A stretch of DNA of 54,971 bases from assembly GCA_017854255.1 (NCBI GenBank), contig JAFMIA010000004.1:1-54971 (forward strand). Direction: 5' to 3'. This document shows positions 1-54,971 of the stretch, piece by piece. Made by a program: the position numbers and the translations under genes. The DNA comes from Pseudomonadales bacterium. GTDB taxonomy: Bacteria; Pseudomonadota; Gammaproteobacteria; Pseudomonadales; Azotimanducaceae. Each line of letters opens with the position of its first letter. Position 1 is the first letter of the stretch. The notes under the pieces were generated by a model. That model did not search any database. It was not told the origin of the DNA and worked only from the letters and a program-made list of their open reading frames with translations.

Positions 1-110
1 ACGGGCTTGGCATGCTGGGCGAGCTGGGTGATGACGGGCTTGGCATGCTGGGCGAGCTGGGTGATGACGGGCTTGGCATGCTGGGTGACGACGGACTCGG
101 CATACTGGGC
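1..110. repeat. 33-bp tandem coding repeat (minisatellite)
   Basis: A 33-bp unit recurs at 1-32 (first base cut off), 33-65 and 66-89. The third copy has lost 9 bp, and a degenerate continuation runs to about 110. The 33-bp period and the 9-bp loss are both multiples of three, so the Ser/Pro lipoprotein frame is kept. The array continues past the left edge, so its copy number is unknown. Confidence 0.85.
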
Positions 111-11251: not shown

Positions 11252-11286
11252 CCCCACACCCCACACCCCACACCCCACACCCCACA
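11252..11286. repeat. five 7-bp CCCCACA repeats
   Basis: Five perfect tandem CCCCACA units lie in the 283-bp gap upstream of the leftward MerC-like gene and downstream of the leftward molybdopterin oxidoreductase. The other strand is TGTGGGG, G-rich and prone to slippage or quadruplex-like folding. They lie about 200 bp upstream of the merC-like start, so they are probably outside its core promoter. Nothing else was recognised in the gap. Confidence 0.8.
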
Positions 11287-11337
11287 CCTTGACGGTTGGG
11301 GACATTATTTACGGCCCAGATCTGCAATGGCTGCGAT

Positions 11338-29056: not shown

Positions 29057-30592
29057 CTAGTACGACGCGCTCGGTAAGCCTAACCGCGCAGCTTGCTCGG
29101 CCGGCGCATTGAGATCGCGTAATGCGTCTTCAAGTAGTGCAATCATTTGATGCTCAAGCTTGGACCCGATGAGATTGTGTTCCTCATGGGGATCCTCCTG
29201 GAGATCAAACAAATAGTGATCATCAAGACTTGCGTCCATCGACCAAAAGGGCAGCATATCGCCTGGCTCGAAGGGTTGCCTTAAGACTGGAACCGAAGAC
29301 CCCGGCATGAAATCAATATAGGCGCGCGCATCGGGATTGGGTAATCGTAACCCGGGGTAATAGGGGACCGGCATGGTTGACCACCGGTTGGACCACATGG
29401 ACAGGGGGTAGTTGTCGTTTGTTGGTCCTCGGGCATATTTATAACGGCCATCCTGAATTTGAACCCAGTTGCCAAATATCCCGCCAACAGCCCAATCCCG
29501 CGCTGGTGTTTTTAATCCAAGAATATCGGGCAGCAGCGATCGACCATGGGTCACGTGATCAACGTTAAGGTCGAAGAGGTCGGTCAGCGTCGCATGCAGA
29601 TCGACATTGGTGCTCAAGCTTGAAATAACGTTGGGTGCTGCCTCTGGATGATAAATCAGCAACGGTGTGTGCCCAATGGGTTCATATTGCATAACTCGGG
29701 GCTTGCCAAAAATATCTTTTTCACCGAGGTAGTGCCCATGATCTGTGCATAAGATCACCATGGTGTCGTCCCAGAACCCACCGTTATCCAGCGCGTCTAA
29801 TACCTTTCCCAGCCAGTGATCGATCATTGACAGCTTGGCGCCATAGTTCTGGCGGATATGGTGGGCTTGTCGCTCGGTGATGACGCCATTTTTCAGGGTA
29901 TCGGTTGAGTAGGGCGGCCAGATAATGCGCTCGCCCGTCCAATCACGATCGTACAGGCTTGCCCAAGGCTCAGGTGTGTCGAAAGGTTCATGGGGATCAA
30001 ATTCGTCGACGAACAAAAAAAAGGATTCATGTTCTTGGCCGTGATCTTTCAACCAGTCGGCGGTTGCTTGCATGGTTTTTGGGCCTGGATAATCCGCTTC
30101 CGCCTTAAAGAACGTCCTCGAGAGATCATAGGCGGACGCTTTGCCTGGATATTTGGTACCGGCAGGCATCGCCGGTGCGCCTTGCCAGGATGGATCCGGT
30201 CGGGTTTTCCAAGGATCGCTCTCGTGACCTCGAAGATAATCCCAGGCGAAAAAATCGGTGTGGTAGTTCTCGCCGCCCGTTTCAAACAGGTGGGGATGAT
30301 CGGTAATGAGTTTGGTGATCACCCCTTGTCGTTTCAACTCATAGGTAACGGGGCGCTCCCATAGCTCGACCGAGCCCCAGGGCTTCCATAGAAAATCCAG
30401 CGCGCCGCACAGAATATCGTGCCGCGCTGGCATACAGGGCAGGGACCCCGTGTAGTGGTTGGTAAAACGTTGGGACCGCGCAGCAAGACGATCAATATTG
30501 GGGGTGCTGAATTCAGTACCGCCATAGCAGCCCAGCATGTGCCGGTTCAGACTGTCGAGCAATAAAACGATGGCGCGTTTGGGTTTTGACAT
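29057..30592 (-). CDS. sulfatase (formylglycine-type)
   Basis: 511 residues from the ATG at 30592. Sulfatase fold with 'AIVLLLDSLNRHMLGCYGG' at the N-terminus and the CMPAR signature at residues 53-57. Cys53 is the residue converted to formylglycine by a maturase. Further metal-site motifs are 'LFVDEFDPHEPF' and 'LCTDHGHYLGEKDIFGKP'. There is no signal peptide, so it is cytoplasmic, unlike polysaccharide sulfatases exported to the periplasm. Substrate unknown; no carbohydrate cluster is adjacent. Confidence 0.92.
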   Translation of the reverse strand: MSKPKRAIVLLLDSLNRHMLGCYGGTEFSTPNIDRLAARSQRFTNHYTGSLPCMPARHDILCGALDFLWKPWGSVELWERPVTYELKRQGVITKLITDHPHLFETGGENYHTDFFAWDYLRGHESDPWKTRPDPSWQGAPAMPAGTKYPGKASAYDLSRTFFKAEADYPGPKTMQATADWLKDHGQEHESFFLFVDEFDPHEPFDTPEPWASLYDRDWTGERIIWPPYSTDTLKNGVITERQAHHIRQNYGAKLSMIDHWLGKVLDALDNGGFWDDTMVILCTDHGHYLGEKDIFGKPRVMQYEPIGHTPLLIYHPEAAPNVISSLSTNVDLHATLTDLFDLNVDHVTHGRSLLPDILGLKTPARDWAVGGIFGNWVQIQDGRYKYARGPTNDNYPLSMWSNRWSTMPVPYYPGLRLPNPDARAYIDFMPGSSVPVLRQPFEPGDMLPFWSMDASLDDHYLFDLQEDPHEEHNLIGSKLEHQMIALLEDALRDLNAPAEQAARLGLPSASY

Positions 30593-30736
30593 AGTGAACT
30601 CGTTGGATCGAAGCCTCGGAACTTTAGCGTGATCGAATACCCAACTCAACACGCCTGCATGCCAACGTTGACCAACGGATCTGTCGGCTAGCTTTACGTT
30701 GTCGGAGGTGGGTCAAAGCCAGCTTGAGGCGTTCCT

Positions 30737-31189
30737 TTACAGATTGAGGAGTGTCTGCACGCGTTTTCCAAACTCGCTTTTTGAAAAAGGCTTGGCCAAG
30801 AAATCGGTTTTCGGGTGCGTAAGGTCCTCATTTGATAGGGCCCCGTGTTTGTAACCGGAGATAAACAAGCAAGCAATCTCCGGCCGTTTCGATCGAATGC
30901 CCCGGACCAAGTCAGGCCCGGTTTTGCCACTGGCGAGCATGACATCCGAGACAATGATGTCGAAGTCATAGTTTGGGAGCTTCAAGACTTCTTGCTCGGC
31001 GCTGCAGCTGGTCACATCCATGCCCAAGCTGCCGAGGAACAATTCAACCAAATCTCGAACGCCTGGGTCGTCTTCGATCAAGAGTGCTTGTTTGATTGCC
31101 CGCTCGATCACGACATCAGTAGCATGGGTATGGATCGGTTGCATCTCGCCCGGCAGAGAAATCATCAGAGCGCACGACATCAGCAGCAT
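30737..31189 (-). CDS. receiver-domain fragment cut off from the upstream sensor kinase
   Basis: 150 residues if translated from 31189. The receiver fold begins at 'ALLIEDDPGVRDLVELFLG', with the phospho-acceptor Asp82 in VSDVML and Lys133 in LAKPF. The first ~27 residues (ISLPGEMQPIHTHATDVV) repeat the end of the kinase, because both lie in a 64-bp tandem duplication. Subtracting 64 bp puts this frame in register with the kinase frame (offset 1 modulo 3). It is therefore best read as the C-terminal half of a former hybrid kinase. Separate translation from 31189 or 31144 is possible but no strong SD is visible. Confidence 0.8.
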   Translation of the reverse strand: MLLMSCALMISLPGEMQPIHTHATDVVIERAIKQALLIEDDPGVRDLVELFLGSLGMDVTSCSAEQEVLKLPNYDFDIIVSDVMLASGKTGPDLVRGIRSKRPEIACLFISGYKHGALSNEDLTHPKTDFLAKPFSKSEFGKRVQTLLNL

Positions 31190-31236
31190 GGGTATGGATC
31201 GGTTGCATCTCGCCCGGCAGAGAAATGATCAGAGCG
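31109..31236. repeat. 64-bp tandem duplication causing a frameshift
   Basis: Copies 31109-31172 and 31173-31236 are 62/64 identical. The differences are T/C at 31120/31184 and C/G at 31163/31227. They cause Thr/Ala and Met/Ile changes on the coding (minus) strand. The length is not a multiple of three, so the duplication moves the reading frame by one base. Confidence 0.95.
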
Positions 31237-32612
31237 CGCTTGCTACCCTCGATTTCCACGGATGGGATTGCCCGGTATTCAGCGCCCAGGGCGGTGAGCG
31301 CGTCGAATTGCGCCAAAAATTGGGTCTCAAGATCGTCGATGACGCCTGCGTCGTTTTGAGGGGTTTGCAGCGGCTGGGCATCAACTTCGTCAAGTTTGAA
31401 GATTATCGTCAAGAAGTTGTAAGCACTGCTGAACTCGATTTGAATTGGCCCAGACGCCGCTGAGAGCTGAGTCAATGTTCGGATCGTCGCCAAAAGCGCA
31501 TGATCAAAGTTTGCGGGGCGTCCAAAACATTCAAAGTCGGCAAGATCCGCTTGCCGATGAAGGGTTAATCGATCGCCGGCGATCAATCGCAACAGCGGGT
31601 CGAGCGTGTTGACGTGTTTCATTGGATTGAAGTGCGTTGCGCGGTCATCATCGAGGTAGCCCAATAGGGTGAGGGCTTCGAGGAGATCGATCGCTTTGCG
31701 AGAATACCGCGACAATTGATTGATTGAAGCGCTTTGGTTTGCACTTGGATTCGAGTGCATTAACTCAGTGTGACCTGAGATAACGCCAAAAACGTTTCGA
31801 AATTCGTGGGCAATGTCCCGAACCGAGGTGAAAACATCCCTCGGCGCAGGATTGGCCTCGACCTGCAGGGTTGTCATGGTAGAAAAGGTGAGGACCAAGA
31901 CACGCTGCTGCGTTTTGGCCAGCTTTTTGTAGCGGCTCATTAAATGAAATGGCTTCAGAGTCCCTTGGATCGTTGTGGTGACATTGCCCTGCCAGCCCGC
32001 ATCAGATGACAGGCGGGTTGGGTTGATCGCGGTGTTATCGGGTGCGTTTTCAACCAGCAAAAATCGATTACAAATCTCTGAGAGCGACGCGTCTTGAAGG
32101 TCTTGGTGCTCAGTTATGAAGGCGGTCGTAAACCCGGCACTCGACCACAGGTAATTGAGGGCTTGATCAAAGACAAGGACCTGACTTTGCGCGCTGACAA
32201 GCGCCGTAAGGTCCTCGCCCAACTCAGGGTTGGCTTCCTTGGCCTGCGGGTGCGTCTCCGGCTCAGGTTGCCGCGTCACGGTAAATTGGCGCTGTTCCGA
32301 GGTGTCTGAGGCGGTCTCAGTCAGGCTCGCCCAAACCCATCCTTCAATGGCATGTTGGAGGCGAATCAAAATCACCTGGGGGGTTGTCTCGGCTGCTGAG
32401 TAAGAGAGCAAGCTCGCGAGCGCTGTTAGATCCCCTGGGTGGACGAGTTCTTCGAGTAGGTGGCCAATCAGGTCCGCTTTTGGCCACGCCATGATGGCGT
32501 CGATTGAAGGATGTAAGTCGACAACTTGATGATGGCGGTTAACGATCAGGCTCGCTGACGCCGCGTCATCTTGATCGCTGATGTCACCAATGAAGCCTGT
32601 GTCTTGAGTCAT
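31116..32612 (-). CDS. PAS-sensor histidine kinase, frame broken before its receiver domain
   Basis: 498 residues. A PAS-like domain covers about 15-75 (SLIVNRHHQVVDLHPSIDAI). A second sensory domain follows at about 140-250, then a dimerisation/H-box with His269 in VRDIAHEFRNVFGVISGHTE. The expected ATP-binding domain (about 340-450) is present by length but lacks a recognisable N-box or glycine-rich loops. After ISLPGEMQPIHTHAADVV the frame runs 20 unrelated residues (RSDDFSAGRDATDPYPCY) and stops, the result of the 64-bp duplication. No membrane segments, so cytoplasmic sensing. Confidence 0.82.
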   Translation of the reverse strand: MTQDTGFIGDISDQDDAASASLIVNRHHQVVDLHPSIDAIMAWPKADLIGHLLEELVHPGDLTALASLLSYSAAETTPQVILIRLQHAIEGWVWASLTETASDTSEQRQFTVTRQPEPETHPQAKEANPELGEDLTALVSAQSQVLVFDQALNYLWSSAGFTTAFITEHQDLQDASLSEICNRFLLVENAPDNTAINPTRLSSDAGWQGNVTTTIQGTLKPFHLMSRYKKLAKTQQRVLVLTFSTMTTLQVEANPAPRDVFTSVRDIAHEFRNVFGVISGHTELMHSNPSANQSASINQLSRYSRKAIDLLEALTLLGYLDDDRATHFNPMKHVNTLDPLLRLIAGDRLTLHRQADLADFECFGRPANFDHALLATIRTLTQLSAASGPIQIEFSSAYNFLTIIFKLDEVDAQPLQTPQNDAGVIDDLETQFLAQFDALTALGAEYRAIPSVEIEGSKRALIISLPGEMQPIHTHAADVVRSDDFSAGRDATDPYPCY

Positions 32613-32680: not shown

Positions 32681-33877
32681 CTAACTCGTAATGGTCTTCC
32701 GCAAGTGGCCCATGCTGAGCATTAGAATAATATAGACAGTCGCAGCAAAGGCATAGGGTAAAACCGGATTGATTTGATAGAGTAAACCGCCAAAGATCGG
32801 ACCCACCGTGAAACCAAGCGGGCCGCAACTCGATGCGATACCGGCAACTGAGCCTTGTTCCTCTGTTGAAACCGCAAGGGACGCGCCCGCCATGAAGGCC
32901 GGCCCGGCAATGCCCATGGCGAAGCCTTGGAGCCCCATGGCGAGGGTGAGCATTAATTGGGTCTGAAACAAGGCCATGATGGTGAATGAAATAATGAGCA
33001 AAGGAATGGCGACGCGCAGCAGATCAAAGGGTGCCAGCTTTAAGCGTTGTACCACAATACCTTGGGCAAATAGGGAAGCGCCGGCGGAGAGCATCATGGC
33101 CAACCCAAGGACCTGGGCTGTTTCTTTCGCTGAGAGGCCAAGGGCATCTTGAAAACGGAAGCCCATCGTTTGTTGCACCAAGGCAAAACCCATAAACATC
33201 AAAACGCCGACGATAATAAACGGGAGAATCCGAGGGTCTGTGTACTTTAATACAGGTCCTTTAACCGTGCGTTTAATTTTGGCTTTCGGAGATTGGGGTA
33301 GAAATCGCCAGACAAAGAGACCGTTTAAAAATGCGAGAACGGCAATCAGCCACAAGGGCAAGAGCAGCGAAAAGACCGCAAGCCCGCTGAGTGCGGGACC
33401 CAAAATCGAGCCCAGATTGTTGGCAGCGCCCGAGGCGCCCATCCCTTTGGTTCGATTCTCAACCGTTGTGATATCGGCCATGTAGGCGGTGGCGGCAGGC
33501 ATGGCGGCTGACATCACCGAGGCATGACACAATCGTGCCACAATGAGCGCCGCAAAGAGCGTCGATCCGGTGAGGGCGCCGGTTAAGCCCAAATTAAGAA
33601 CGGAATTAAACAAGATCGTGCCAGCGCTGAAGCCAAACAAACCAATCAGCATCACCCGTTTTCGGCCAAGTGAGTCACTTAAGCGTCCCCAAATGGGTGA
33701 GGCCAAAAAGACCGCAAGGGATGACGCACCGATAATGCTGGTGATTTGAAATTCACTCAGTCCCATTTCTCGGCCAATGGGGGCGAGTAGCGGAAACAAC
33801 ACCGAAAACCCCATGCCAACGATCACAAGACTCGTTAACAGGACGCGGCGCGCGTAGGTTAACGCTTGATCATCCAT
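32681..33877 (-). CDS. MFS transporter, drug-efflux-like
   Basis: 398 residues from the ATG at 33877; an ATG at 33916 adds 13 residues. 12 membrane helices, with the MFS motif 'SPIWGRLSDSLGRKRVMLIG' after helix 2 and the repeated half motif in the second half. The pattern matches the DHA1/multidrug-like group. Single gene; the substrate is not predictable. It is divergent from the MBL hydrolase. Confidence 0.88.
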   Translation of the reverse strand: MDDQALTYARRVLLTSLVIVGMGFSVLFPLLAPIGREMGLSEFQITSIIGASSLAVFLASPIWGRLSDSLGRKRVMLIGLFGFSAGTILFNSVLNLGLTGALTGSTLFAALIVARLCHASVMSAAMPAATAYMADITTVENRTKGMGASGAANNLGSILGPALSGLAVFSLLLPLWLIAVLAFLNGLFVWRFLPQSPKAKIKRTVKGPVLKYTDPRILPFIIVGVLMFMGFALVQQTMGFRFQDALGLSAKETAQVLGLAMMLSAGASLFAQGIVVQRLKLAPFDLLRVAIPLLIISFTIMALFQTQLMLTLAMGLQGFAMGIAGPAFMAGASLAVSTEEQGSVAGIASSCGPLGFTVGPIFGGLLYQINPVLPYAFAATVYIILMLSMGHLRKTITS

Positions 33878-34092
33878 GGTGTTGTCTGCTTCTTGAAGGT
33901 CAGTGTTATGATTCATGTGCCGTTGGGGCTGCCGGGATTTAACCGCCGCCAGTATAGTGTAACCAATCGGAAAATGTGGATCTGTTCCATCGAGCAATCT
34001 AAATACCATTCGCCGCGCTGCGCTCGAATCCTTTAGCGCTGCGGCATCAGATCGTTTTAAGTCCGGTTACGGACAAGGTGAGTGAGGTAACG

Positions 34093-54771: not shown

Positions 54772-54791
54772 GGGTTCGCCCGCATTTTTTT
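54772..54791 (+). terminator. possible terminator after enoyl-CoA hydratase
   Basis: A short GGG-TTCG-CCC stem with the stable UUCG loop is followed after GCA by seven T. The stem is only three to four pairs, so efficiency is doubtful. Confidence 0.4.
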
Positions 54792-54792
54792 A

Positions 54793-54971
54793 AACAGCCC
54801 TGAGCGATAAACAGCCTTGAGCGGATAACAGCCTTGAGCGATAAACAGCCCTGAGCGGATAACAGCCTTGAGCGATAAACAGCCCTGAGCGATAAACAGC
54901 CCTGAGCGAACAACAGCCCTGAGCGAACAACAGCCCTGAGCGAACAACAGCCCTGAGCGATAAACAGCCCT
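54793..54971. repeat. 17-bp tandem repeat array, ten-plus copies
   Basis: Ten complete 17-bp units begin at 54793 and every 17 bp to 54946, then nine bases of an eleventh run off the window. Consensus AACAGCCCTGAGCGATA. Position 8 is C or T and the last three bases are ATA, GAT or AAC. Variants are grouped: three AAC-ending units lie together at 54895-54945. Units abut with no spacers, so it is a minisatellite and not a CRISPR array. Each unit has stops in the forward direction. Confidence 0.97.

Follow-up and report, generated by a model that had tools for sequence, protein, structure and literature searches.

The window, a stretch of 54,971 nt, carries on its minus strand a gene of the hybrid histidine kinase type that is divided over two overlapping open reading frames (ORFs), a 5' piece with the sensory and kinase-like domains and a 3' piece with the receiver (Table 1). 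The two frames meet at a tandem pair of 64-bp units, found by TRF as well as by a separate repeat search of the window, in which 62 of 64 positions are identical. Mononucleotide shuffles of the window (n=100) never gave more than 33 matching positions out of 64 at a lag of 64, which rules out a chance origin of the repeat. Similarity runs 1 bp past the two units, so that there is essentially no microhomology at the junction; the array measures 129 bp, and the longest exact match between the copies is 42 bp. The unit is not divisible by three (64 = 3 x 21 + 1) and thus shifts the frame: the 5' ORF ends out of frame within the downstream copy, and the first ATG of the receiver ORF lies inside the upstream copy. 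The segment SLPGEMQPIHTHA(A/T)DVV is present in both ORFs, in frames one base apart. Both the near-perfect pair and its translation by the kinase and receiver frames, one base out of phase, had been described in a preliminary description of this DNA, and both were reproduced here.

Table 1. Positions of the split gene, its domains and motifs, the repeat copies and the neighbouring genes in the window
Feature	Position	Strand	Basis
Upstream neighbour, MFS transporter (part of query ORF 32681-34009)	32681..33874	-	Pfam MFS_1
5' piece (498 aa): PAS, second PAS-like stretch, HisKA-like DHp, degenerate CA	31116..32612	-	ORF, Pfam
H-box His codon (RDIAHEFRN, ORF residue 269)	31806..31808	-	alignment; residue counted by hand
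Degenerate ATPase-like (CA) region lacking N-box, G1 and G2, approximate	31206..31637	-	limits transferred by hand from orthologue model
Upstream repeat copy, in frame with kinase ORF	31173..31236	-	repeat searches, copy comparison
Downstream repeat copy, in frame with receiver ORF	31109..31172	-	repeat searches, copy comparison
3' piece, receiver (REC) ORF (150 aa)	30737..31189	-	ORF; PF00072 E=1.8e-14
Receiver phospho-Asp codon (VSDVML)	30944..30946	-	motif; residue counted by hand
Downstream neighbour, sulfatase family (internal Met of ORF 29057-30652 assumed as start)	29057..30592	-	Pfam Sulfatase

Related loci were recovered from four metagenome-assembled genomes (MAGs): L018 (genome G003), L019 (G002), L020 (G005) and L021 (G012). 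The first three carry the gene as an uninterrupted single frame of 607, 603 and 603 codons, respectively, with one copy of the segment. The two pieces of the window were compared with these orthologues separately. By BLASTP, the 5' piece is 73-75% identical to their first part, and the receiver piece 88-91% identical to their C-terminal end; counted in residues, 349/458 (76%) are identical to L018 and 344/457 (75%) to L019 in the 5' piece, and 112 to 117 of 123 to L018, L019 and L020 in the receiver piece. The distance from a single SLPG motif to the start of the receiver is 23-24 residues in L018, L019, L020, L021, L007, L008 and L009, which points to one copy of the segment in each of these seven relatives; L010 and L011, which have no SLPG motif, were left out of this measure. 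The comparison supports the split of one ancestral PAS-HK-REC protein, as the preliminary description had proposed. It had also named an alignment of orthologues as a check and held that the lack of any one-copy allele in relatives would speak against the proposal: the three close relatives turned out to be single-frame hybrids, and one-copy alleles were found in all seven relatives measured.

On the coding strand, the mismatches between the two copies fall at repeat positions 10 and 53. The base of the downstream copy at position 10 is shared by three of the four orthologues compared; at position 53 both copies deviate from all four. The difference between the copies (2/64) is to be set against a DNA difference of 21-22% between the 5' piece and three relatives, which suggests that the duplication postdates the species split, although two differences in 64 bp are too few for a date. 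Between the window and the three close orthologues, dN is 0.145-0.161 and dS 0.675-0.769 for the PAS-HK part, and dN is 0.032-0.049 and dS 0.486-1.118 for the receiver; by our own division, dN/dS amounts to 0.19-0.24 and 0.03-0.09, respectively. The intact pairs L018-L019 and L018-L020 have higher dN values (PAS-HK 0.164 and 0.185; receiver 0.060 and 0.063), and the closer intact pair L019-L020 has lower ones (PAS-HK 0.037; receiver 0.010). On these values the window pieces are without sign of decay, and the break therefore appears to be young. Towards L007 and L008 the window is 72-73% identical in the receiver and 30% in the PAS-HK part; in pairs of distant members that include L007 or L008, identity is 67-73% in the receiver and 29-31% in the sensory and kinase-like part.

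The preliminary description had taken the gene product for a working sensor kinase, a view that the domain searches do not bear out. The 3' piece has a strong Pfam receiver match; PAS and HisKA matches of the 5' piece all lie below cut-off. For HATPase_c, a Pfam search with E up to 1 gave no match in the window piece or in six of the seven genus orthologues scanned, and the seventh, L010, reached 15.1 bits, short of the cut-off of 26.4. The domain is clear in L013 (8.7e-19) and L014 (6.5e-17), homologues from other genera of the family. In the window and its close orthologues, the expected residues are replaced at the alignment columns that we take to be the N-box, G1 and G2; L010 retains an N-box-like stretch. 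The H-box histidine is present in the window and, among nine other genus rows aligned, absent only in L008 (G014), where it is replaced (AIELRN) next to an intact receiver. The receiver of the window, with its acidic pair, phospho-Asp, Lys and PF00072 match, is likewise present but sits in a separate frame. A profile of five orthologues, searched against the PDB with E up to 0.01, gave 40 matches with best stretches in the receiver or the first PAS, and in none of the 40 did the best stretch cover the CA region.

From a 5-row alignment, AlphaFold gave for L018 a model (mean pLDDT 71.6, pTM 0.36) in which we recognise a pair of PAS-like domains, a DHp of two helices, an alpha/beta region resembling CA, and a receiver. 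Sensor kinases are among the top 50 Foldseek matches of this model in the PDB, although weakly, with TMq values of only 0.15-0.22. What counts against the reading of a missing kinase is the NCBIfam model of a VirA-like kinase (NF010411), which matches L018 at 267-397 (E=3.7e-10, far below cut-off) and takes in the first part of the CA region. Because HATPase_c was not detected and the ATP-binding motifs are missing, the protein is unlikely to be a working kinase. A kinase-like fold, here a predicted one, without the catalytic motifs is one mark of a pseudokinase, and the protein is probably a genus-restricted hybrid histidine pseudokinase rather than an active kinase.

With the CckA and PRK13557-type PAS hybrid kinases (NCBIfam NF046020 and NF010076) the gene product shares the domain order PAS-DHp-CA-REC, and these two families are the best NCBIfam matches of L018, via the receiver, among the best 25 families per protein. 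Unlike in those kinases, the matches of L018 and L007 cover the receiver only or, in the case of NF010411, part of DHp/CA, and all lie far below the curated cut-offs; among the best 25 families per protein, a near full-length match is seen only in L013, from another genus, and below cut-off. DivL of Caulobacter has, to our knowledge, no receiver. It is likewise described as a kinase-like core without kinase activity and with PAS input, a likeness by description only: excerpts of PMC4211667 report no autokinase or phosphatase activity and weak ATP binding. According to the same excerpts DivL has Tyr550 in place of the histidine, whereas the family studied here keeps the histidine in most relatives and has a conserved receiver fused to it. 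In the literature on hybrid histidine kinases and tandem duplication, as far as excerpts of the matches listed go, we found no hybrid kinase split by a short duplication, and a search for degenerate hybrids led, again in excerpts, to reviews on cyclic dinucleotides only.

The family was found in 11 of 15 genus genomes and in none of 191 other genomes of the taxonomic family (E<=1e-30). In all ten gene-bearing genomes with the locus read, the MFS gene precedes the gene; the sulfatase gene follows it in seven of these loci (window, G002, G003, G005, G007, G012 and G014), and in G006, G010 and G013 no sulfatase match was found within the stretch read. Tallied by hand for gene state, seven of the 15 genus genomes have an intact gene (G002, G003, G005, G006, G007, G013 and G014) and three a broken one, namely G000, the genome of the window (duplication), G012 (frame break near a C run) and G010 (stops and frame changes). 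Three others have lost it or retain a remnant: no trace was found in G008 (E up to 1e-4), and about 70 N-terminal residues are left in G001 and G011. In G004 and G009 contig ends make the gene unassessable. The break in G012, being near a C run, may be a sequencing error, which would weaken the pattern of loss. In G010, a receiver frame follows the decayed gene. In G001 (L089 1624-4668), peptidase-M1-like and DUF6702 genes replace the body of the pseudokinase gene, and at the same place in G011 (L090) there are ORFs of like size and similar to those in G001. As the breaks in G010, G001 and G011 fall in the same codon neighbourhood (support of their fork 90/86), this group may represent one loss.

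Two genes on the upstream flank, the MFS gene and a gene of the metallo-beta-lactamase fold, are free of stops over their matched stretches in all 15 genomes, although the MFS gene is cut in G009 (contig end) and the metallo-beta-lactamase-fold gene in G002. Broken frames are more frequent in the gene than in these two neighbours when the window is counted (3/10 versus 0/28; Fisher exact test, p=0.014), but the difference is not significant without the window, which had been chosen for being broken (2/9 versus 0/26, p=0.06). The test was based on the hand tally and excluded five of the 15 genomes (three geneless, two with contig ends) as well as the one cut genome per neighbour; the sulfatase gene was left out. 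Poor assembly as the sole cause of the broken frames is disfavoured by the two stop-free neighbours in the same 15 genomes, though with the reservation of p=0.06 without the window. On a tree of the MFS protein from 14 genomes (G009 left out), the labels intact, broken and lost cluster no more than in shuffles. For 'broken' as for 'lost', the starred branches of this tree require a minimum of two changes, the exact number not being fixed.

The genome was also scanned for similar repeats (units of 24-500 bp, at least 85% identity, no gaps) in 407,146 of its 3,357,069 bases, comprising the window and 23 further stretches. Repeats were seen in five stretches other than the window, by eye four times between genes and once at an ORF tail, and we rejected the idea that the assembly as a whole is enriched in such duplications. 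Those with units of 32, 26, 8 and 122 bp are intergenic by eye. The window also has repeats within open frames, with units of 33 bp and 12 bp, which preserve the frame. The 122-bp repeat (L085 14073-14316) has two copies with 94% identity upstream of a sulfatase-like ORF. At the contig start, an open frame of 234 codons holds a perfect 33-bp tandem repeat (window 1-109), which overlaps a 24-bp one, as well as a repeat of an 11-bp unit (220-250, 2.8 copies). Outside all open frames of at least 90 codons, CCCCACA occurs in 5.3 perfect copies (11252-11288). A 17-bp minisatellite of 10.6 copies (54791-54971) extends to the window end, where it adjoins a run of N (C58:54972-54979); it overlaps a 101-codon open frame, which we do not regard as a gene.

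With a single assembly as its source, the duplication may not exist. Overlapping ends of two contigs, or two strain haplotypes with two differing sites, could have been joined with a 64-bp overlap left unmerged, giving a false duplication; we consider this rather unlikely. The assembly of G000 consists of 163 contigs, and the N run just past the window, followed by a further run of 39 N, suggests that contig C58 is a scaffold, even if some N could be masking. The single base pair of junction microhomology and the two differences between the copies would fit such a join, the latter as strain haplotypes might differ. The pair is, moreover, the sole in-ORF tandem repeat with a unit that is not a multiple of three in the bases sampled, apart from two exceptions, a 29-bp repeat touching an ORF tail and the terminal 17-bp array of the window. 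On the other hand, there is no N inside the window, and an array of this length with so short an exact match should be resolved by short-read assembly. Tandem repeats with units of 26-122 bp also occur between genes of the same genome, which is 98.4% complete with 0.61% contamination, and relatives broke or lost the gene by other routes.

If the duplication is genuine, precedents exist for its effect. In Xenorhabdus nematophila, tandem duplications of 26-116 bp account for three of 25 distinct nonsynonymous lrp mutations; according to excerpts of PMC6786866, the variants are termed plain mutants, not phase variants, and the reversion tests may not include duplication mutants. In Streptococcus pneumoniae, phase variation is reported to arise from such duplications in capsule genes (Waite et al. 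2001, 2003, via excerpts of PMC4022640 and PMC4243769), a mechanism against which PMC4243769, in its excerpted part, sets its own irreversible mutation; reversion at a homopolymer is described in an excerpt of PMC13410964. The window allele resembles the lrp and capsule cases in that a short duplication within an ORF inactivates it (excerpts of PMC6786866 and PMC4022640), and differs from them in being known as sequence only, from one assembly. On such precedents, inactivation of an ORF by a short tandem duplication is an ordinary event. Bet-hedging in Burkholderia thailandensis likewise involves a tandem duplication that alters two-component signalling in part of the population, but there a 208.6-kb region is duplicated via insertion elements and the system is activated (excerpts of PMC12124856 and PMC11661271), as opposed to 64 bp inside one gene.

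The pneumococcal precedent (excerpts citing Waite et al. 2001 and 2003), together with the constraint on both pieces and with tandem copies that are nearly identical and whose length is not a multiple of three, is what a reversible phase switch could draw on, in which slippage or recombination between the copies toggles between the hybrid protein and the split form. Such a switch, which the preliminary description had offered as one of two inferences, is possible in principle but without positive support here, and we consider it improbable: each of the seven relatives in which the site was measured has a single copy, the copies of the window have already diverged at 2/64 sites, inactivation in relatives (deletion, several stops) appears irreversible, and the toggled protein probably lacks kinase activity. 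Very improbable, in our estimate, is the more specific idea that the two-copy allele is one state of a spontaneously reversible toggle uncoupling the conserved receiver from the PAS-driven pseudokinase; if true, a receiver regulated in cis would become a free one, in a lineage with a fast-evolving sensory half and a receiver that hardly changes. Gene fission with use of both pieces appears similarly doubtful. The strongly conserved receiver could be made as a stand-alone response regulator from ATG codons in the repeat, of which four are in frame (31189, 31180, 31165 and 31144), the one at 31165 being owed to one of the two differences between the copies. None of the four is preceded, by eye, by a clear Shine-Dalgarno sequence at normal spacing, however, and the receiver sits in a long frame in the seven relatives with an intact gene; in G010 its frame trails a decayed gene, and with a young break conservation is uninformative on use after the split.

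We consider it probable that a recent 64-bp tandem duplication caused loss of function in a conditionally dispensable, genus-specific hybrid pseudokinase gene. The frame would be shifted just after the degenerate CA region, and translation would stop soon past the shift, separating the C-terminal receiver. Inactivation was the other inference of the preliminary description, and it gains from the finding that relatives also broke or lost the gene. Against plain inactivation it may be held that the apparent constraint on both pieces could also reflect their continued use, and that 64-bp tandem repeats can in principle collapse, which makes reversal mechanistically possible. On the reading favoured here, the duplication would nevertheless amount to simple loss of function, in a gene presumably dispensable under some conditions. 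In its intact form, the protein may act as a PAS-input scaffold or phosphotransfer module, with a receiver phosphorylated by, or signalling to, another kinase or regulator rather than through its own ATP-dependent autophosphorylation. The tempting reading of a sensor kinase switched by a repeat is thus corrected on two counts, as the broken 'kinase' is probably no kinase and several relatives broke or lost the same gene. The fast evolution of the sensory half, as opposed to the near constancy of the receiver, suggests that selection acts on the receiver and its partner, and not on kinase activity.
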